Origin: a virus
Virus record (IMG/VR): IMGVR_UViG_3300034104_003230
Coordinates: 1-26,378 of that record
Strand: one strand, 5' to 3'
Length of the DNA: 26,378 nt
The notes beneath the pieces were generated by a model that had not been told where the DNA came from, did no database searches, and worked only from the letters and a program-made list of their open reading frames with translations. Each line of letters starts with the position of its first letter. Within the stretch, counting starts at the first letter, position 1. Positions 2,389 to 24,617 of this stretch are shown here, in pieces. A program made the position numbers and the translations under genes.

Positions 2389-5300
2389 TTATATGTAGTT
2401 ATACTGTGTTGTCCATACCGTAGAATTTCCACTTGCAGGTGTTACTTGTAATCTCAAGTATCCGCCTTGTATGTTTACTGCCAATGCCCCGGTATAGCCA
2501 CCTAAATTGACAGTACCGTAAGTAGCATAATCTACGTTGCTGGTTCCGTTTGTTACTGCTTGTACAGTAGCAACACTATATTTACTTCCCGATGCATCCA
2601 CACCTTTAACTAGGAATTGAACCCCTGTAATGCCTGTTACAGGTACACTAGCAATAGTTTGATTTGCAGTTACAGTAGAAGTAGTAAATGTTCCCCAAGT
2701 AGTTGTAGTATTACCTATAACAACTGAGTTAGAAATGTTTGCCGAACCTATAACTCCAAATATACCTGTTGTAGGATTGAATGTTAAGTTTGCGTCTGCC
2801 GCAAAGTTATCGTTCAAGTTAAACTGAATTTCAGTATTCGAGCCAGCAGCTTCTTGTAAGTCCCATGGCACGCCATTGCTATAGTACAAGTTATCAGTCA
2901 ATACACCCCAGTTTGCAGTGGCGTTAGATATTAACAGATTACCACTAATTGTGGTCTGACCTGCAGCCAATGTTGACGAGAAGTTAGCGGTATTACCTGA
3001 CAACTCTAAATTAACCGTTAGGTTATTAGTGAGTGTATTACTACTAACATTAACGTTTACTGCACTAACATTGCTGTTAGCAGATATGTTATTAGCTAAA
3101 AGATTTGCACCAACGTCAACAAAATTAGTAACAAATAAATTATTTGAATTTACATTAGCATTACTGTTGATGTTACCATTACTTTGAATAATGTTTCCAA
3201 CAGTTAGGTCTAATGTTATGTTTGCATTTGATGTGATGCTAAAATTATTTGCATCAATGTTACCTGTTACGTTTAAACTTGTACCGGTGGCCGCGCCAAT
3301 GTTAGGAGTAGTAAATTGTGCGTTAGCAATAACAACTATGTTTCCTCCTACTATACCAGTAGTTACACCATCGGTATTTGCAGATATAGTAGTACCGGTT
3401 ATATCAATACCACTACCTGCAGAATATGATCCGGCAGCACTGAATTGCGTAAAGGTTAAGTTATCAGTACCAATTATGACTTCACCTGTTGGTGAAGTCA
3501 TAACGTAAGATTCACCGGCTCCTGTTACACCCTGTGTTACGAATACGTATGAGCCTGCACTCAGTCCGTTAGGAGAGTCAGGGCTGTATTTGTTAAAATC
3601 TGTTGCTCTTGTTAAGACCCAAGCAGTCGAGCCATTACCCACTGTTGTTACAGTGTATACTCCGTTTTCATATGCATTTACTTGAGTATAAACTAAAACA
3701 CGATCACTAGTACTTAGGTTAATTCCGTCAATCTGTAAGGCAGCGTTTGCTCCCGCATTTGTCAGTGTTGCCCCTACTCCTGGATTAGCACGTGACGCTT
3801 GAGCTAAACTTGTGCCATTTGTAAGTGTTGTTACTTCTGGACCATAGTATCCATCTTTAACAGTGATGCTTGTTGATGAGGGTATACTGTAGACCCAATA
3901 TGCTTCACCACCGACTAAGCCATTAAATGAATTAGTAAACACGATACCGTCATTGACGCTTAAGCCGTGTGCAGAACCAAAGTCAATAGTAGTACCGCTT
4001 GTGATAGAGTCAACCGTTGGGGTTGTGCCTCCCTGAGCATATGTTGCAGTAAGTGCAGTTGGAGATTCAACACGAACCGGTGTGTGAATATCAAGACCTT
4101 CTCCAGCCATTGCATCAACATATTCTTTTGTTGCAGCATCAGTTGGATTAACTGGATCACCAAGCTGGATAATTTTCTTTCCAGATACACTGATAGCTCC
4201 TGTGCCAGTTGGAGCAAGAATAATGTTTTCATTAGTACCCGCGGCACTAATTGTGATATTACCAGTAGGTGCTACGATTGTTGCCGTCTTAACACTACCA
4301 ATTAATGCTTCACCTGATACGTTTGCATTGGCCGCATTAACAAAGCCGTTAGCAATTACATTGCCGTTAGCAGTGATGTTGCCTGTAGTAGAATTGATGT
4401 TTCCTAAAACCAACAACCCAGTCTCAGTGAAGGTAGCAACGTTTGAAGATCCATTGATCGTGATTTCTACGTTAGCATTTGAATAAACTTTAACATTACT
4501 ATTGCCGTTCGCCAATGAACCAACTAAATTGGCTCCGGTAATGTTGCCTAGAACATTCAAATCATTTGCCACGTTTACATAGTTAGCACTAGCCAAGTTA
4601 CCTAAATTAGCATTTAATGAAGTAATATTTCCTGAAAAGTTAGCAGTATTACCCGCAATATTATTGTTAACTGTTAATGCATTAGTGATTGTATTGGCTG
4701 CAACATTCACGTAGTTAGCAGTAACCAAATTACCTAAATTAGCATTTAATGTGGTAACATTACCAGTGAAGTTAGCCGTGTTGCCACTTAGTTCTAGGTT
4801 AATTGTTAAATTACTAGTTGTTACATTGGATGCTACATTCACATAGTTAGCTTTTACCAAGTTACCTAAATTAGCATTCAATGCACTATTGATATTGCCG
4901 GTGAAGTTAGCCGTGTTACCACTTAGTTCTAGGTTAACATTTAAAGCATTAGTAGTTGCTGTTGCGGCAATATTTACATAGTTAGCAGTTACTAAGTTAC
5001 CTAAATTAGCATTTAATGCACTATTAATATTACCAGTGAAGTTAGCTGTGTTACCACTTAGTTCTAGGTTAATTGTTAAATTACTAGTTGTTACATTGGA
5101 TGCTACATTCACATAGTTAGCAATAACCAAATTGCCCAAATTAGCATTTAACGTAGTAATATTACCAGTGAAGTTGGCTGTGTTGCCACTTAGTTCTAGG
5201 TTAACTGTTAAATTATTAGTAATAGAATTAGATGCTACATTCACATAGTTAGCAGTTACTAAGTTACCTAAATTAGCATTTAATGCACTATTGATATTAC

Positions 5301-7528: not shown

Positions 7529-7894
7529 ATGTTAACACGACAACCTAGTAGACCTCTCTGTGAGCATTGCAAAATATCATTAGCTAAACCAAACGGCAAG
7601 AGTAAACACGGCTTTACTAAATGGCACAAGTACTGTGTTGCGTGTGCTAAGAGTGCATATAATAGTAAGTTTGGTTATTTGCTACACAAGAAAAATAGAT
7701 GTGAGAAGTGCAGTTTTATACCAGAAGACACCTGTCAATTAGATGTTGTGTATAAAGACGGAAATAAGAAAAACAAAGACAAGTCAAATTTAAAAACTCT
7801 ATGTGCAAATTGTAATAGAGTTTTTCAGAAGAAGCTAAAAGAGAAACAAAAGTCTATTTTAGATATAACAGTTGACACTGATTATAGATTATGA
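7529..7894 (+). CDS. HNH-like zinc-finger protein with degenerate catalytic motif (121 aa)
   Basis: Four CxxC pairs (CEHC, CVAC, CEKC, CANC) suggest two zinc sites. The C-terminal half follows the HNH endonuclease layout: CQLDVVYKDGNKKN, then SNLKTLCANCNR. The usual DH of the motif is replaced by VY and the usual final CH by CN, so the general-base His is not visible. I prefer the ATG at 7529 to a GTG at 7508, which lies inside the hairpin. Neither start has a clear ribosome-binding site. The gene is the only plus-strand gene between 1 and 19408. It converges with the hydroxylase gene, their stops overlapping by 6 bases. It could be a homing-type nuclease, an inactive DNA-binding derivative, or a family that always uses this variant. 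Confidence 0.65.
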   Translation: MLTRQPSRPLCEHCKISLAKPNGKSKHGFTKWHKYCVACAKSAYNSKFGYLLHKKNRCEKCSFIPEDTCQLDVVYKDGNKKNKDKSNLKTLCANCNRVFQKKLKEKQKSILDITVDTDYRL

Positions 7895-8653
7895 CCACTG
7901 CTTGTTTATATAAACTTTACCTAATTCCCAAGGCTTAGGAGTAGGGGATATAATAGAAGTCCCGTTTTTGTTTCTTATAAATGGTTTTGTTGCGATTGTT
8001 CGTGCTAGCTCAATTTTTTCACCCAAGTCTATCCCTACATATTCTCTAGTCAAATCTAAGAAAAACACTAGCCTATATTCGTCAGTTAGATTAAATGCAC
8101 TGTGCATTAATTGATTCGAAAACCCAAAGCAATCACTCCAGTTGACTTCTTGTCCATTCACTTCTAAAAATATATCCCCTTCAGGTATAATTAAAGGGAT
8201 ATGAATTCTGACATTCTTTCCATTAATGTTTTCAGGGTCAGTGTGTCTTTTAATTATACTGTTTGGTGCCATACAGCTATAATTTGCTAATGAACAATTA
8301 TCCCCAAACTCTTGGATCAATCTATATGCAGTTGGATATTTTTTAGCACGAGGATGATCTTCGCTTAAATTAAAACTAATGTCCATCACACCGTAGCTGT
8401 GTCGCTCACATTTAAATGCAACAGAACGCCAACTTTCAACATTAGATACGTATTCACCTTCACTATTAGCTGTAACGATAGAGCTACTAGCATCATATGT
8501 TCTGTTAGCTAGATTAGGAATGCCGTTAGTTTTAATTGCCTCTTTCAATGAAGAATATCCCTCCATGAATTCATCAGTTAGTGATTTTTGAAAGCTCATT
8601 AGATATTCAGCAACATCTCCTAATTCTTTCTTAGAGTAAATTGCCTGCATCAT
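7889..8653 (-). CDS. Asp/Asn beta-hydroxylase-like 2OG/Fe(II) oxygenase, HTD variant (254 aa)
   Basis: The C-terminal half follows the aspartyl/asparaginyl beta-hydroxylase family: KRHTDPEN (H137, D139), RIHIPL (R149, H151), a conserved NWSDCFGF segment, then HSAFNLTDEYRLVFFLDL (H184, R194). In this family His and His bind iron and the Arg residues hold 2-oxoglutarate. Most members have HTGP, with Gly where other 2OG enzymes have Asp; here that position is Asp, which could restore a full His-Asp-His triad. The start at 8653 overlaps the stop of the paralogue upstream (ATGATG), so the two genes are translationally coupled. Probably cytosolic, with no signal peptide. The substrate is unknown: protein Asp/Asn side chains are the family precedent, but free amino acids are possible. 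Confidence 0.72.
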   Translation of the reverse strand: MMQAIYSKKELGDVAEYLMSFQKSLTDEFMEGYSSLKEAIKTNGIPNLANRTYDASSSIVTANSEGEYVSNVESWRSVAFKCERHSYGVMDISFNLSEDHPRAKKYPTAYRLIQEFGDNCSLANYSCMAPNSIIKRHTDPENINGKNVRIHIPLIIPEGDIFLEVNGQEVNWSDCFGFSNQLMHSAFNLTDEYRLVFFLDLTREYVGIDLGEKIELARTIATKPFIRNKNGTSIISPTPKPWELGKVYINKQWS

Positions 8654-9393
8654 TTTAATTTTTTAATGAAGAAGTTAGGTGGCATAGCTGATAGTATTGA
8701 GTATCCGTTTTTATTTCTTATAAATGGTTTTGCCTTCGCTATCATCTCCGGGTCATATACTGTACCTGGCTCTAATCCTATAAACTCTCTATCAAGGTCT
8801 ATTAGAAAAATGAGTCTATATTCATTTGATAAATTGAAAGAACTATGTTCGAACTGATTGTTGAATCCAAAGCAATCACTCCAGTTAACTTCTTGACCAT
8901 GCACTTCTAAAAATATCTCGCCCTCAGGTATAATTAAAGGGATATGAATTCTGACATATTTACCTGATCTATTCTCGGGTCCAGTGTGTCGTTTTAATAC
9001 ACTATTGGGAGCCATTATACTATAATTTGCAATAGGACAATTATCCCCAAACTCTTTTATTAGCTTGTATGCAGTCGGGTATTTAATGGCATGTAAATGA
9101 TTCTCCGGAGTAGTAAAGCTACGTTCTACTATACCATCATGTCTTTCATATCTAAATGCAACTGCCATCCAACTTTCTACACTAGGTTCATACATACCTT
9201 TTTCATTTTTACTAACAATGGTACTTGCAGAATCGTATGGTCTACCTGCTAAGTTAGGAGTACCGTTTTCTTTAACAGCTTGCTCTAATGATTCATATCC
9301 TGCTAAAAATTCTTCAGTAAGTGCTTTCTGAAAACTCATTAGGTAGTCAGCTATGGGTCCTAATTCTTTGCGTGTATATATTGCTTTTGTCAT
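8650..9393 (-). CDS. Asp/Asn beta-hydroxylase-like 2OG/Fe(II) oxygenase, HTG variant (247 aa)
   Basis: This is a close paralogue of the gene at 7889 along its whole length. It carries the canonical family motif KRHTGPEN (H136, G138), RIHIPLIIPEG (R148, H150) and HSSFNLSNEYRLIFLIDL (H183, R193). I chose the ATG at 9393 because it aligns MTKAIYTRKELG with MMQAIYSKKELG of the paralogue. A longer frame from a GTG at 9492 would have to translate through a strong terminator hairpin. No clear ribosome-binding site precedes 9393; a GATAAATA ends six bases before the ATG. The pair forms a two-gene operon between the head genes and the tail fibres, suggesting late expression. The substrate is not known. 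Confidence 0.72.
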   Translation of the reverse strand: MTKAIYTRKELGPIADYLMSFQKALTEEFLAGYESLEQAVKENGTPNLAGRPYDSASTIVSKNEKGMYEPSVESWMAVAFRYERHDGIVERSFTTPENHLHAIKYPTAYKLIKEFGDNCPIANYSIMAPNSVLKRHTGPENRSGKYVRIHIPLIIPEGEIFLEVHGQEVNWSDCFGFNNQFEHSSFNLSNEYRLIFLIDLDREFIGLEPGTVYDPEMIAKAKPFIRNKNGYSILSAMPPNFFIKKLK

Positions 9394-9424: not shown

Positions 9425-9448
9425 AAAAGAGCACCGAAGTGCTCTTTT
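9425..9448 (-). terminator. Rho-independent terminator with UUCG loop
   Basis: The minus strand reads AAAAGAGCAC-TTCG-GTGCTCTTTT, followed by two more T. It is a perfect 10-bp stem capped by the extra-stable cUUCGg tetraloop. It lies 27 bases past the stop of the 179-aa gene and would end its transcript. The stem is symmetrical, so it may also work on the plus strand. Confidence 0.85.
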
Positions 9449-9475: not shown

Positions 9476-10015
9476 TTAATCTCTATCGTCACTCATACCT
9501 ACATAATACAATAATGTCAAACCATATATTATACACATTAAGGGTAATCCATAATTAATAAGCAATGCAGGTAAACGCTCATCAGCTAACATACTATTAA
9601 CCATGGAAGGATCATTCACAGGTGTTGACATGATGTGTGCCATAGTATCATAAATTTTATTTAATACTAAGTAAGCACTACCACCTAATACACCTAAACC
9701 ACCGGATATTGTTTTACCCATATTGTTTCCAAAGCCTTCAGAAATACCCGAACCAGCATCTGCTTTAGCTAGTGCTTCAGTTTTTTTCTTAGCTTCTTCG
9801 GCACTTTTACTAGTTTTTAAAATGTTTAACAATTCATTTTTACGACCTTGTGCTTGTTTATATGCTTGTTGTGCTTTAGGAGACGAAGCTAAAAACTTAT
9901 CTAATAAACCTGATACTTTTGATTGTAACCAATCACCTATTCCCTCATCAAGCTGTTGTTGTTCACTTGCTTCATTGATAAGGTCTATATAATTTCTAAA
10001 TAAGTCCGTACTCAT
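9476..10015 (-). CDS. Late protein with C-terminal membrane segment, candidate head protein (179 aa)
   Basis: I do not recognise the family. The ATG at 10015 has a strong ribosome-binding site (AAAGGAAT) and a perfect T4 late element TATAAATA 17 bases upstream, and the gene ends at a strong terminator, so it is a well-formed single-gene late unit. The N-terminus is amphipathic (MSTDLFRNYIDLINEA) and is followed by QLDEGIGDW. A Lys/Ala-rich helical region spans about 45-90, then a Gly-rich stretch (ISGGLGVLGGSAYLVL) and a hydrophobic segment near residues 150-172 (INYGLPLMCIIYGLTLLYYV) before the charged tail MSDDRD. INE (13-15) and LDE (22-24) match the (L/I)xE rule for T4 gp21 cleavage, so a processed internal head or DNA-ejection protein is possible. 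Any other membrane role remains open. Confidence 0.7.
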   Translation of the reverse strand: MSTDLFRNYIDLINEASEQQQLDEGIGDWLQSKVSGLLDKFLASSPKAQQAYKQAQGRKNELLNILKTSKSAEEAKKKTEALAKADAGSGISEGFGNNMGKTISGGLGVLGGSAYLVLNKIYDTMAHIMSTPVNDPSMVNSMLADERLPALLINYGLPLMCIIYGLTLLYYVGMSDDRD

Positions 10016-10039: not shown

Positions 10040-10072
10040 CTAGATTGATAAATTATCCAATAAAAAAGAGCA

Positions 10073-10095
10073 CCAAAGTGCTCTTTAGTTCCTTC
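10073..10095 (-). terminator. Rho-independent terminator after gp23
   Basis: The minus strand reads AAAGAGCAC-TTTG-GTGCTCTTT and continues TTTATT. It is a 9-bp perfect stem followed by a T-run, about 50 bases past the gp23 stop. It separates the capsid transcript from the single-gene unit that starts at 10039. Boundaries are good to a couple of bases. Confidence 0.82.
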
Positions 10096-10143: not shown

Positions 10144-11340
10144 TTATTGGAATGTCAAGTTCTGAACAGCGATTTCACCAACATAGTCAGCCGCGTTACC
10201 GAAGCTGGATGCAGTGTTAGTCAATTCGATGTAACCATAACGTGTCATGAATGATACGACTGGTTCGAATGTTGACGGATCTAGAACAACACCAGAACTC
10301 ATCAATGGAATGTATGGGCAATAGAATGCTGCCGCATCAGTCTCAGATGAACCCTTGTATCCAACTAGAACAGGTGTTGTGTCAGGAGCATAAGAGTCAA
10401 CGAAAACTCTCATAGCACCGTTCAATGTACCAACAAACTTAGTGTTTGTAGGAGCTTCGAATGTACCTTCTGTTGTACGTGCAAAAGCAGAAGTAGTTGC
10501 AGATTGCAATACTGTCAATGCCGCAGAAGAAACAACAGCCCAGTTACCTGCGCCACGACGAGTGCGTTGAGCGATCAAGTTAGCAACACGGTTGATAAGA
10601 ACAGCCAAAGCAGCGTGTTCGTCACCAACGTAAGTAGCTGTACCAGATACAGTAGCTTGGTTGTATGTATACTCTGTAGATGCTAGAGTACGTAGAGATA
10701 ACAAGATTTCTTGGTCGATTTCAGCAGTAATTTCTTGTGCTAAAGCGGCCATGATTTCTGCTTCAACGTCAATACCATGTTGGCTTTGAGCGTCTTGAGC
10801 CGCTTCAAATGTCCAACGTGCTTGCAACTTACGTGACTTAGCTTCAACAGCCTGACGCAAGATTTGTACGCTGATTTGCTTACCACCATTGCCTTCTAAG
10901 GCAGCAGTGTTGTTAGCAGTATAGCTTGTTGAAGAACCATCAGCTTGTGGTGTACGTGAATATGCCTGTGCAATCAAGAACGGGCTTAATGCTTCTTGAC
11001 CAGCTGTAACAGAAGTTGCGGCTGCAGAAGTGTCAGTCAATGACTGAGCATAACGTACACGTAATGTGTGGATTTGACCAACTGGGCCGGTCATTGGCTG
11101 AACGCCTACCAATTCGTTAGCGATAACGGTTGGCATAACACGACGGATAACTGGAAGAATCACACGGTTTAATGTAGCGATGTTACCAGCAGTTGTAGTA
11201 CCAGCTGAAGATTCAGCTAATAACTGTTTTTTGGTGTTTTCTAAAATAACACCCATTGTTGAACGGCGAGTTCCTTTTAAGCCTTCTAACAGAGCTTCTT
11301 TGGTCTCGTCCCAACGGCTTTCTAAGAGTACTTTTGACAT
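10144..11340 (-). CDS. gp23: Major capsid protein gp23 (398 aa)
   Basis: Forms the hexamers of the icosahedral head. Recognised by the T4-family signature QRTRRGAGNWAVVSS, then FVGTLNGAMRVFVDSY, GYKGSSETDAAAFYCPYIPL and the end MTRYGYIELTN ... YVGEIAVQNLTFQ. It is shorter than T4 gp23 (521 aa). The N-terminal 45 residues are charged and helical and contain QLLAESSAG; L41-A42-E43 fits the gp21 cleavage rule (L/I)xE, so the mature protein probably begins at S44, matching the T4 pattern of removing an N-terminal scaffold-binding arm. The ATG has a strong ribosome-binding site (TTTAGGAGAAA). It directly follows gp22 with about 30 bases between them. I see no clear late promoter in that gap, so read-through from upstream is likely. 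Confidence 0.96.
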   Translation of the reverse strand: MSKVLLESRWDETKEALLEGLKGTRRSTMGVILENTKKQLLAESSAGTTTAGNIATLNRVILPVIRRVMPTVIANELVGVQPMTGPVGQIHTLRVRYAQSLTDTSAAATSVTAGQEALSPFLIAQAYSRTPQADGSSTSYTANNTAALEGNGGKQISVQILRQAVEAKSRKLQARWTFEAAQDAQSQHGIDVEAEIMAALAQEITAEIDQEILLSLRTLASTEYTYNQATVSGTATYVGDEHAALAVLINRVANLIAQRTRRGAGNWAVVSSAALTVLQSATTSAFARTTEGTFEAPTNTKFVGTLNGAMRVFVDSYAPDTTPVLVGYKGSSETDAAAFYCPYIPLMSSGVVLDPSTFEPVVSFMTRYGYIELTNTASSFGNAADYVGEIAVQNLTFQ

Positions 11341-21620: not shown

Positions 21621-21899
21621 TCACTTGGGAGTAGCGTCTTTAATTTTCCATTGCTTTTCAAAATTTATCATGTTGCTAGGATTATTAATGGTACTGTCAT
21701 CACATAATCTATAACAAGGTGCGAATGGTTTATCAGTGTTCCATGAATCTGTTATTGTTTTGAAATTGGGAGATTTTATAGCTTCTCTAATTTCCGCAGT
21801 GAGCGTTGGTCCACCATCATACATGTAACAACACGGTAATATGTCACCATTAGAAGTAACAAATATACTCTTTTCAGTTAATACTCTACATTTAATCAT
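21621..21899 (-). CDS. Separate SPASM-like C-terminal half of a radical SAM protein (92 aa)
   Basis: The short protein has the Cys pattern of a SPASM-type auxiliary iron-sulfur domain: C4, CC at 23-24 within SNGDILPCCYMYDGG, and C62 and C66 in FAPCYRLCDD. In radical SAM/SPASM enzymes this domain normally follows the core in the same chain. Here it begins at an ATG overlapping the stop of the core gene (ATGA), in the -1 frame. A split protein made by coupled translation is one reading; a frameshift mutation or sequencing error in a single gene is the other. On its own it cannot be a radical SAM enzyme. The substrate is unknown. Confidence 0.65.
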   Translation of the reverse strand: MIKCRVLTEKSIFVTSNGDILPCCYMYDGGPTLTAEIREAIKSPNFKTITDSWNTDKPFAPCYRLCDDSTINNPSNMINFEKQWKIKDATPK

Positions 21900-22546
21900 T
21901 GATATTCGATTCCTTTTGGTGGCTTGAATGTTTCACGCAAGTGCATGAAGATAGGTTTTTTCATGCGACTACTGACTTTAGTTCGGAACCCTATGAACCC
22001 CATGTCAATTGCTAACTTTCTAGCTTCCTCAACTTGGTGTTCATTATATTCGAACACCAAGTATTCCCAATGTGCTCTGCCGCCCGCGGCAATAAATGCA
22101 GAGGCATTTTTCATTATCTTTTCAAAGTCAGTGTTTACACGATGTATATGGTTTGTGTCTTTTAATCCATCAATACCAAAATAACATTCATCGCCTAGTT
22201 TAGATAGTACGCTACCTAGTTCTGTCCACCAAGATGTATTACGTAACCCACCGTTTGTATGTATACCTAATCTGATATTATCATTTACATGTCTAAAGTA
22301 TTTAAATATGTCGATGCACTCGGGTGCCGCCGCCGGGTCTCCGTAATTGCCGCACATCCACATATATTCTAGATTACTAATAAACTGGTCATTAAACAAT
22401 TGTTTTATTTTTTCTAGTGATAATGATTTTGGGTCAGTAGCTTTATTAAACTTTGGATCAATTTCTCTCCCGCACATAGGACAAGCCGCGTTACAAACAC
22501 TACTTGTTTCTAGATGCAGGGATTTAATACTATCAAGTTCGAACAT
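21896..22546 (-). CDS. Radical SAM core protein (216 aa)
   Basis: The CxxxCxxC motif at C18, C22 and C25 (SSVCNAACPMCGRE) would bind the 4Fe-4S cluster that cleaves S-adenosylmethionine. The following segments fit the partial barrel of the family: LEYMWMCGNYGDPAAAPE (strand plus the Gly-rich SAM-binding loop), RLGIHTNGGLRN and CYFGIDGLKDTNHIHRVNTD. I chose the ATG at 22546 (MFELDSIKSLHLE), preceded by GCGAGAT, because this N-terminus puts the Cys motif at the usual distance; longer frames reach back to 22618. It overlaps the end of gp46 by 14 bases. The chain stops where a SPASM domain would begin, and that domain is encoded by the next overlapping gene. Target not known: a peptide, tRNA or nucleotide modification are all possible. 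Confidence 0.78.
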   Translation of the reverse strand: MFELDSIKSLHLETSSVCNAACPMCGREIDPKFNKATDPKSLSLEKIKQLFNDQFISNLEYMWMCGNYGDPAAAPECIDIFKYFRHVNDNIRLGIHTNGGLRNTSWWTELGSVLSKLGDECYFGIDGLKDTNHIHRVNTDFEKIMKNASAFIAAGGRAHWEYLVFEYNEHQVEEARKLAIDMGFIGFRTKVSSRMKKPIFMHLRETFKPPKGIEYQ

Positions 22547-24617
22547 CTGATATCTCGCTATCATTGCTATATGAAGTAAAGCCGTTTTCTTTGATAACCT
22601 TGAGAACGTTTGGTACACGACCTGCTAGTTCTTCACGGTGTGACACAAGCCAAATTGACTTATGACGACGGCGACTCATATCTTTGAGAATTGCTAGACT
22701 GTTCTCAACACCCATAGTGTCAAGACCACTGTCAATCAACTCGTCAATGAACAATGTGTTAACCGGAGCATACAAGTTCTCCCATACATCACGGAAAGCA
22801 AAACTCAGTCCCAAGATCAAACGATTACGTTCACCGCGACTCAAGTTGTCAAAGTCAAGTTCACGACCTAACTCAGTGATTTCAACTGTCAAGTCGTTCT
22901 TAAATACGACATTATGAGGCAAGCCAATCTTATCTAAGTAATGCGTCAGTCGTGCGTTCAAGTAACTCAAGTTCTGGTCAATAATCTTCTTACGAACGAA
23001 ACTGTCTTTACTAGTTAACAAGTCTAGTAAGAACTTTTGATGTTCCATTGCTTTTGTGATATTGTTAATCGTATCAAAATTTATTTCTTGCAGAGCTTGT
23101 GCTTCCATTTCAAGAATCTGCTCTTGATACGGATCAGTTTCCTGCGCTTTGTTCTCAATCTGTGATAATAGATTTGATATCTTAGTCCTGTGCTCCACTG
23201 CTTGGGCTTCGGTATCGTAATGAGTAGATGGCTTACTACCCAAAGTGACGCTAGGCGTGTCAAAAAGTTGTTCACTAAAGGGGTTATTCTCGCTGGATTT
23301 TTCGTCAATCTGCTTTTTGATGTTATCAATCTCCGTTGACTGACGTACTGCTTCAACCTCTGTCTTATAATGTGTAACAGGTTTATCTCCTACAACGATT
23401 GGATTAGCAACAAGTTCATCTAACTGAAAACGCAAATCATCCAAATGACTCTTGCTTGTATTCCACAATTCAATCTTGCTGTTTAGAACACTAGTATGTT
23501 GGTCATCATGGAAATCTTGTCCACATGCATAGCATTTATGTTCTTTAAGTGTATCAACTTCTTGGGTTAACTTATTGTAGTTCTTACTTTCTTTAGTAAT
23601 ATCTTTACGTAAACTATCAACCTTACTGTCGTGCGCAGTCTTTAGTTGAACTTGTTGGTTATGCACAGCCAAATCAGTGTGAGCTTGTAGTTCATGAACA
23701 AAGTCAATATGGCTCAACTCATCCATTTTAAGTTTGAGTGTAGCAATGTCTTTGTCTTGTTTTTGCATCCAAGCTGTTTGTCTAGCAATCAATGCATCGT
23801 ATGCCTCTTGCTGTTGCTTTTGTGAGTTCCAAACCACTAAGTCTTTGTGAGCCTGTAGTTCAGTATCAATGTCAACTTTACTCAACTCGTCATACTCAGT
23901 GGCAATGAAAGACAAGTCTTCATCATGCTTTCGTTGCCACAGTGTTTGTCTTCTTCTAACACTATCGATCTGTTCTTTGACTCGCTTGTTAGCTTCTTCA
24001 ACTGCTTTGATTCTAAATTCTTCTTGTTGGATATCATCCTTGCTTTGACGGATCAAGTCTTTAACTACTTCTGCTTTCTCACTCAATAAAGTGATACCCA
24101 AAAGTTGTTCAATGATATCTTTTTGCTCGTTGTTTTTTAGTGCAAGGAATGGTTCGGAATAAGTGTTCAACACAACAATGTGTTTGAACATTTCGGGACT
24201 CATATTCAACACACGCTCAATTGCCGCTTGTGTTTCTTTGTTCTCACCCTGTTGGTCTTCAGTAGCTTTCTGTTGAACATCGTTTACATAAAACTTCAAT
24301 ACGTTGGGCTTACGACCACGCTCAATCTTGTACTCAGTGCCGTTAACGTTAAACTCTAATGTAACTAACATGCCCTTACCATTTGTACGATTAACTAAAT
24401 TATCTTTACGAATAGAGTTAATGGGCACACCAAACAAGGCATAGGATAGACCTTGAATCAACGTAGTTTTACCAGTACCATTACGAGCACCATCACCTCC
24501 TAAGTCTAAATTCTCACCTAGAATAAGTGTAATGTCTTTCTTGTCAAAGTCAACTGCTTGTGTTACGTTACCGATAGATAGGAAGTTGCGTAGTGTAATA
24601 TTCTTTATAGTTATCAT
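22533..24617 (-). CDS. gp46: Recombination endonuclease subunit gp46, Rad50/SbcC-like (694 aa)
   Basis: ATPase subunit of the gp46/gp47 complex that resects DNA ends for recombination-dependent replication and host DNA breakdown. Walker A is GARNGTGKTT (43-52), the zinc hook KCYACGQ (C362, C365), the signature LSRGERN (592-598), Walker B TLFIDE (621-626), and the switch His in WLVSHREE (H660). The two coiled-coil arms flank the hook. It is longer than T4 gp46 (560 aa). The extra length is explained by duplications: residues 223-278 and 279-334 are an ungapped 56-residue tandem repeat, and about 408-457 and 458-507 a 50-residue tandem repeat on the other arm. Its ATG overlaps the gp47 stop (ATGA), so the subunits are translationally coupled. 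Confidence 0.95.
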   Translation of the reverse strand: MITIKNITLRNFLSIGNVTQAVDFDKKDITLILGENLDLGGDGARNGTGKTTLIQGLSYALFGVPINSIRKDNLVNRTNGKGMLVTLEFNVNGTEYKIERGRKPNVLKFYVNDVQQKATEDQQGENKETQAAIERVLNMSPEMFKHIVVLNTYSEPFLALKNNEQKDIIEQLLGITLLSEKAEVVKDLIRQSKDDIQQEEFRIKAVEEANKRVKEQIDSVRRRQTLWQRKHDEDLSFIATEYDELSKVDIDTELQAHKDLVVWNSQKQQQEAYDALIARQTAWMQKQDKDIATLKLKMDELSHIDFVHELQAHTDLAVHNQQVQLKTAHDSKVDSLRKDITKESKNYNKLTQEVDTLKEHKCYACGQDFHDDQHTSVLNSKIELWNTSKSHLDDLRFQLDELVANPIVVGDKPVTHYKTEVEAVRQSTEIDNIKKQIDEKSSENNPFSEQLFDTPSVTLGSKPSTHYDTEAQAVEHRTKISNLLSQIENKAQETDPYQEQILEMEAQALQEINFDTINNITKAMEHQKFLLDLLTSKDSFVRKKIIDQNLSYLNARLTHYLDKIGLPHNVVFKNDLTVEITELGRELDFDNLSRGERNRLILGLSFAFRDVWENLYAPVNTLFIDELIDSGLDTMGVENSLAILKDMSRRRHKSIWLVSHREELAGRVPNVLKVIKENGFTSYSNDSEISDVRT

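Follow-up and report, generated by a model that had tools for sequence, protein, structure and literature searches.

Tandem predicted Fe(II)/2-oxoglutarate oxygenases of a phage differ at the carboxylate-ligand position, where Asp has arisen repeatedly within a Gly clade

The window, a 26,378 nucleotide stretch of DNA from a large phage, carries two tandem PF05118 oxygenase genes that share a four-base overlap (8650-8653) and whose products are 61% identical, with little divergence outside the tail (Table 1). Both proteins score above the curated PF05118 (Asp_Arg_Hydrox) gathering cut-off of 22.6 bits, the upstream copy at 61.7 and the downstream copy at 55.3 bits, and both conserve the HxG/D...H arrangement and the 2-oxoglutarate (2OG)-binding Arg of the family. 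The initial annotation had described tandem paralogues that differ as HTG versus HTD and that each keep the second His and the Arg residues, and the two genes are indeed found where it placed them, with H183/H184, R148/R149 and R193/R194 present (upstream/downstream numbering throughout). The same HTG-then-HTD pair is seen in two further phage contigs (L003 and L004), at 76-80% protein identity to the window pair, so the Gly/Asp difference is no artefact of sequencing. Shortly past the differing codon the two copies share a 34-base identical run (8181-8214 and 8924-8957) that covers codons 147-158; with P 0.0004 by codon shuffling and P 0.09 by a synonymous-codon test the statistics are weak, and the run is only suggestive of local gene conversion between the window copies that left the Gly/Asp difference intact.

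Table 1. Coordinates of the oxygenase pair, its predicted active-site codons and associated loci
Feature	Location	Strand	Remarks
Upstream PF05118 oxygenase, HTGPEN copy (P0002)	8650-9393	minus	247 aa
Downstream PF05118 oxygenase, HTDPEN copy (P0001)	7889-8653	minus	254 aa
Gly138, upstream copy	8980-8982	minus	codon GGA; aligns with AspH Gly681
Asp139, downstream copy	8237-8239	minus	codon GAC; predicted third iron ligand
His136, upstream copy	8986-8988	minus	in HTGPEN
His137, downstream copy	8243-8245	minus	predicted first iron ligand (AspH His679); 132/132 homologues
His184, downstream copy	8102-8104	minus	predicted second iron-ligand His (AspH His725); 132/132 homologues
Arg194, downstream copy	8072-8074	minus	predicted 2OG C5-carboxylate anchor (AspH Arg735); 131/132 homologues
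Terminator-like hairpin	9426-9447	minus	just before upstream (HTG) copy
T4-type major capsid gene	10144-11340		PHROG 138
nrdA-hydroxylase-nrdB locus, L045	2435-4314		
nrdA-hydroxylase-nrdB locus, L051	180-4299		
nrdA-hydroxylase-nrdB locus, L073	83-2850		
Further nrdA-hydroxylase-nrdB loci			L043, L048, L049, L052, L054, L065, L068, L069, L084

The pair is located between the T4-type major capsid gene, whose product has its nearest counterparts (~66%) in PA5oct-type and other large myoviruses, and a set of repetitive fibre-like genes. A GTG-start form of the upstream gene (280 aa, to 9492) was rejected and probably does not mark the gene start, as the added stretch runs across a terminator-like hairpin that is also present after the capsid gene. 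The second occurrence of this hairpin is at 10065-10086, and the two flank a 179-aa gene (9476-10015). The matching position holds a fatty acid desaturase gene in L003 and no gene in L042, a pattern suggestive of a site behind the capsid gene at which cargo genes are inserted.

AspH famously departs from the 2-His-1-carboxylate rule, and the human enzyme is the best solved match to the AlphaFold models of both copies (pLDDT 91.3 downstream, 93.5 upstream; Z 17.4 and 18.0, respectively). By sequence, phmmer aligns the upstream HTG directly to the HTG segment of AspH, and AspH is the only plausible match when a nine-sequence profile is compared with solved structures; the profile was required, as P0001 used singly retrieved no true relative among solved structures. 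The metal of AspH is bound by His679 and His725, 2OG is anchored by Arg735 and Ser668, and His690 and Arg688 lie nearby (PMC6817910), while water occupies the place of the carboxylate (PMC13168262). All six of these residues are matched in both phage proteins (S125/126, H136/137, R148/149, H150/151, H183/184 and R193/194). The upstream copy has in addition the Gly of the AspH-type two-His class, and as AspH itself has Gly with two His ligands only, the earlier description of HTG as a form without a carboxylate ligand is borne out. The downstream copy has no such Gly and instead combines HxD...H with a fold known from solved 2OG oxygenases, from which we predict a 2-His-1-carboxylate enzyme. 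Alignment and modelled fold place Asp139 at the usual carboxylate-ligand position, in agreement with what had been proposed for the differing residue, and Asp139 would accordingly be expected to ligate iron in the downstream copy. That it falls short of the metal, the motif being a coincidence, is very improbable given that the HxD...H arrangement and fold are shared with LpxO-type proteins, proline 3-hydroxylase and cis-proline 4-hydroxylase, and that in the model position 139 comes two residues after the invariant His which ends strand E132-137.

The likeness to AspH takes in Pfam family, fold, second His and 2OG-site residues, and the HTG of the upstream copy, but the phage proteins have only ~20% identity to it and are without a TPR domain or known EGF-like substrates, and the downstream one has Asp where AspH has Gly681. 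LpxO (NF033391) and OlsC (NF052565) are likewise of PF05118 type and have the HxD...H triad seen in the downstream copy, which matches LpxO at E 7e-10; however, the phage copies reach only 38.4 and 28.3 bits against the NF033391 cut-off of 500 and lack the HRDP[FY]AGS motif, and are not LpxO. Proline 3-hydroxylase (1e5r) and L-proline cis-4-hydroxylase (4p7x) are among the other 2OG oxygenases that form the next solved matches (Z 11-12) and share the HxD...H iron site (PMC9968057), but they act on small molecules, have other lids and C-terminal parts, and are 13-16% identical. Compared by annotation only, related phage genes are the aspartyl/asparaginyl beta-hydroxylases of cyanophages P-HM1 and P-HM2, with two in one genome (PMC3037559), and of pelagimyophages, in which the gene is core (PMC7029224); we found no report in the literature of a Gly/Asp split in either group.

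Both His residues are invariant among 132 distinct homologues, in which the ligand position is Gly in 84, Asp in 46 and Ala in two, and the 129 distinct viral sequences obtained after one further scan have Gly in 84, Asp in 43 and Ala in two, proportions that are only rough, because the scans relied on conserved peptide patterns, one of them derived from D-type sequences. The residue that replaces Gly is Asp, never Glu, Asn or Ser, apart from the two Ala (HLAPEN, at 2435-3166 in both L083 and L086), a form known from 2OG halogenases. Bacterial proteins of LpxO type (HRDP[FY]AGS) have Asp in all cases, and of four compared with the NCBIfam LpxO cut-off two exceed it. Beyond these, the only matches among named phages were weak ones to Acinetobacter phage MD-2021a, and a scan of genome contigs gave two distant bacterial ones. 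Neither the Gly nor the Asp state is unusual in the family. As Asp is common both in viral clades and in LpxO, the downstream copy simply has the ordinary HxD...H triad of the superfamily, and a view of it as a rarity is not supported. The initial annotation had also allowed that Asp might prove common and unrelated to metal binding; common it is, but in a structural relative, cis-P3H, Asp109 ligates the metal alongside H107 and H158 (PMC9968057).

A quick tree of 108 rows, built with column 139 removed and having many weak inner branches, requires eight changes between states versus ~31 in shuffles, which indicates that the Gly/Asp state is stable over long periods. A 66-row viral clade (support 99) comprises 60 Gly, five Asp and one Ala, and another viral clade has Asp in 13 of 13 rows. 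The five Asp rows of the former are scattered over four positions: the Asp copies of the window and of L003 adjoin their own Gly copies (support 99), L080 adjoins the Gly row L070, L073 lies inside an nrd-linked Gly group, and the second gene of L150 adjoins the first (support 99). A single origin of the five is rejected by 286 log units (p-AU 2.6e-57), and no column other than 139 has gained an identical residue in each of the four lineages, nor is any other parallel change shared by three or more of them. With the direction of change taken from parsimony inside the 66-row clade, Asp arose convergently on at least four separate tips of a Gly clade. Two of the four events are associated with mixed tandem pairs, Gly upstream and Asp downstream, in the window lineage and in IMG/VR 3300001282_000010; the second, independent pair, that of L150 and L162, is HTG then HWD, nine bases apart, and the remaining two events (L080 and L073) show no tandem pair in the available contigs. 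Tandem arrays of two or three Gly-type copies without Asp are also common, so duplication is frequent and the Gly to Asp change follows just sometimes. Of the possibilities raised at the outset, reversion after duplication is the history we favour, the Asp copy being nested in the Gly clade and a second independent pair existing. Divided functions, the other suggestion, are at most a candidate, as the copies have diverged little outside the tail and the Asp copy is missing from a near-identical relative.

We consider it probable that the window encodes two active oxygenases with different iron sites, produced by tandem duplication and convergent restoration of the triad. Both genes are tandem duplicates of a predicted phage Fe(II)/2OG oxygenase of the AspH/LpxO/proline-hydroxylase superfamily, and the ancestor of the phage clade probably had HTG, the two-His site of AspH type. 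Once the gene had duplicated, its downstream copy gained Asp139, most likely at the third facial position of the iron to give a His-Asp-His triad, the upstream copy retaining a two-His site in which a substrate group or water may take the third place. The two proteins would bind 2OG via Ser, Arg and His, activate O2 and hydroxylate their substrate with release of succinate and CO2; the default guess at this substrate would be an Asp or Asn side chain in some protein of the phage or its host. The Gly/Asp change may alter iron affinity, oxidant or substrate choice. FIH stays active when its carboxylate is removed (D201G; PMC6817910) and AspH still works with a single His ligand, loss of either His being tolerated (PMC10947486), so that lost activity is not to be predicted from gain or loss of the carboxylate alone, and altered iron affinity or substrate geometry would be the likelier outcome.

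Since FIH D201G is active, the Gly/Asp difference need not change function at all, and it could be near-neutral, the same job being done with two or three ligands while the phages drift. The tolerance of AspH to loss of either His would fit such drift, as would the wide spread of both residues and the fact that the Asp copy can be lost. We nevertheless regard it as unlikely, because Gly is kept in 60 of 66 rows and Asp in all 13 of another clade, the eight changes against ~31 describe long-lived states, and the window-lineage change, GGA to GAC, takes two base substitutions, with Asp alone replacing Gly except for the two Ala.

Both copies are under purifying selection, with dN/dS between the window and L003 of 0.063 for the Asp copies and 0.101 for the Gly copies, values obtained with dS near saturation. 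This bears on the suggestion that one copy is a pseudoenzyme, HTD being catalytic and HTG its partner or regulator, or the reverse. The gene overlap, which suggests co-expression, and the double origin of mixed pairs speak for it, but all other ligand and 2OG residues are kept in both copies, selection is purifying on both (0.10 and 0.06) and HTG is the active form in AspH, which together make a pseudoenzyme quite improbable. The Asp copy is retained where present, yet is readily gained or lost. Contig L005 has flanks 97-99.6% identical to the window and a single hydroxylase gene (3001-3744) with no Asp copy, which is therefore dispensable in that relative. The L005 gene is a mosaic, its first ~118 codons matching the window HTG copy and the remainder resembling L042, which carries just one HTG copy at the corresponding location; L005 represents either presence/absence variation or an assembly chimera. 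Recombination of this kind, joining a window-like 5' half to an L042-like 3' half, could in principle have imported the Asp copy from a D-type phage gene in place of mutation after duplication, but there is very little to recommend this origin, as the Asp copy is nearest to Gly copies of its own lineage (support 99) and not to the Asp clade.

Among relatives of the pair, 12 distinct viral tree rows have an AspH-like gene flanked immediately by nrdA on one side and nrdB on the other (the subunits of class Ia ribonucleotide reductase), in many cases with a few bases of overlap with nrdB, and in four more rows it adjoins just one of the two. The lone HTD copy of L073 is among these loci, and one contig has a copy in the nrd operon (L051) as well as one in the capsid-fibre setting (L042). 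We found no description of the nrdA-hydroxylase-nrdB order in the open-access literature. The link might implicate ribonucleotide reductase, or the supply of nucleotides, and not virion proteins, although co-location is no evidence of substrate. A broader view would be that phages repeatedly switch Gly and Asp after tandem duplication to give co-expressed pairs in which metal centre and reaction both differ, the Asp copy carrying out ordinary hydroxylation, for instance, and the Gly copy chemistry of a substrate-ligated or halide type, in a family tied to ribonucleotide reductase. This we hold to be unlikely.

Both Gly and Asp versions are common in the family and the triad itself is ordinary family-wide; what is added here is the independent, repeated switch in phages, twice in tandem pairs, and it is this convergent phylogeny that is informative, and modestly interesting. 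The repeated, closely related Gly/Asp pairs of single-domain, ~250-residue phage proteins amount to a natural experiment on the missing carboxylate of AspH, in which the two states, and swaps of the one residue, can be set side by side against an almost unchanged background. HxG and HxD are also unfit for dividing 'AspH' from 'other' family members in phage annotation.

Structural genes are not supported as a conserved neighbour, and hence as a pointer to substrate, capsid and fibre linkage being limited to the nearest relatives of the window. Other relatives have tail-tube, nrd, ligase or radical-SAM genes as neighbours. B12-binding radical SAM genes lie near viral PF05118 copies at 3612-5099 in L081 and 987-2507 in L156 (both by Pfam) and at 1-798 in L150 (judged from sequence only), and the window itself has a radical SAM gene at 21896-22618.
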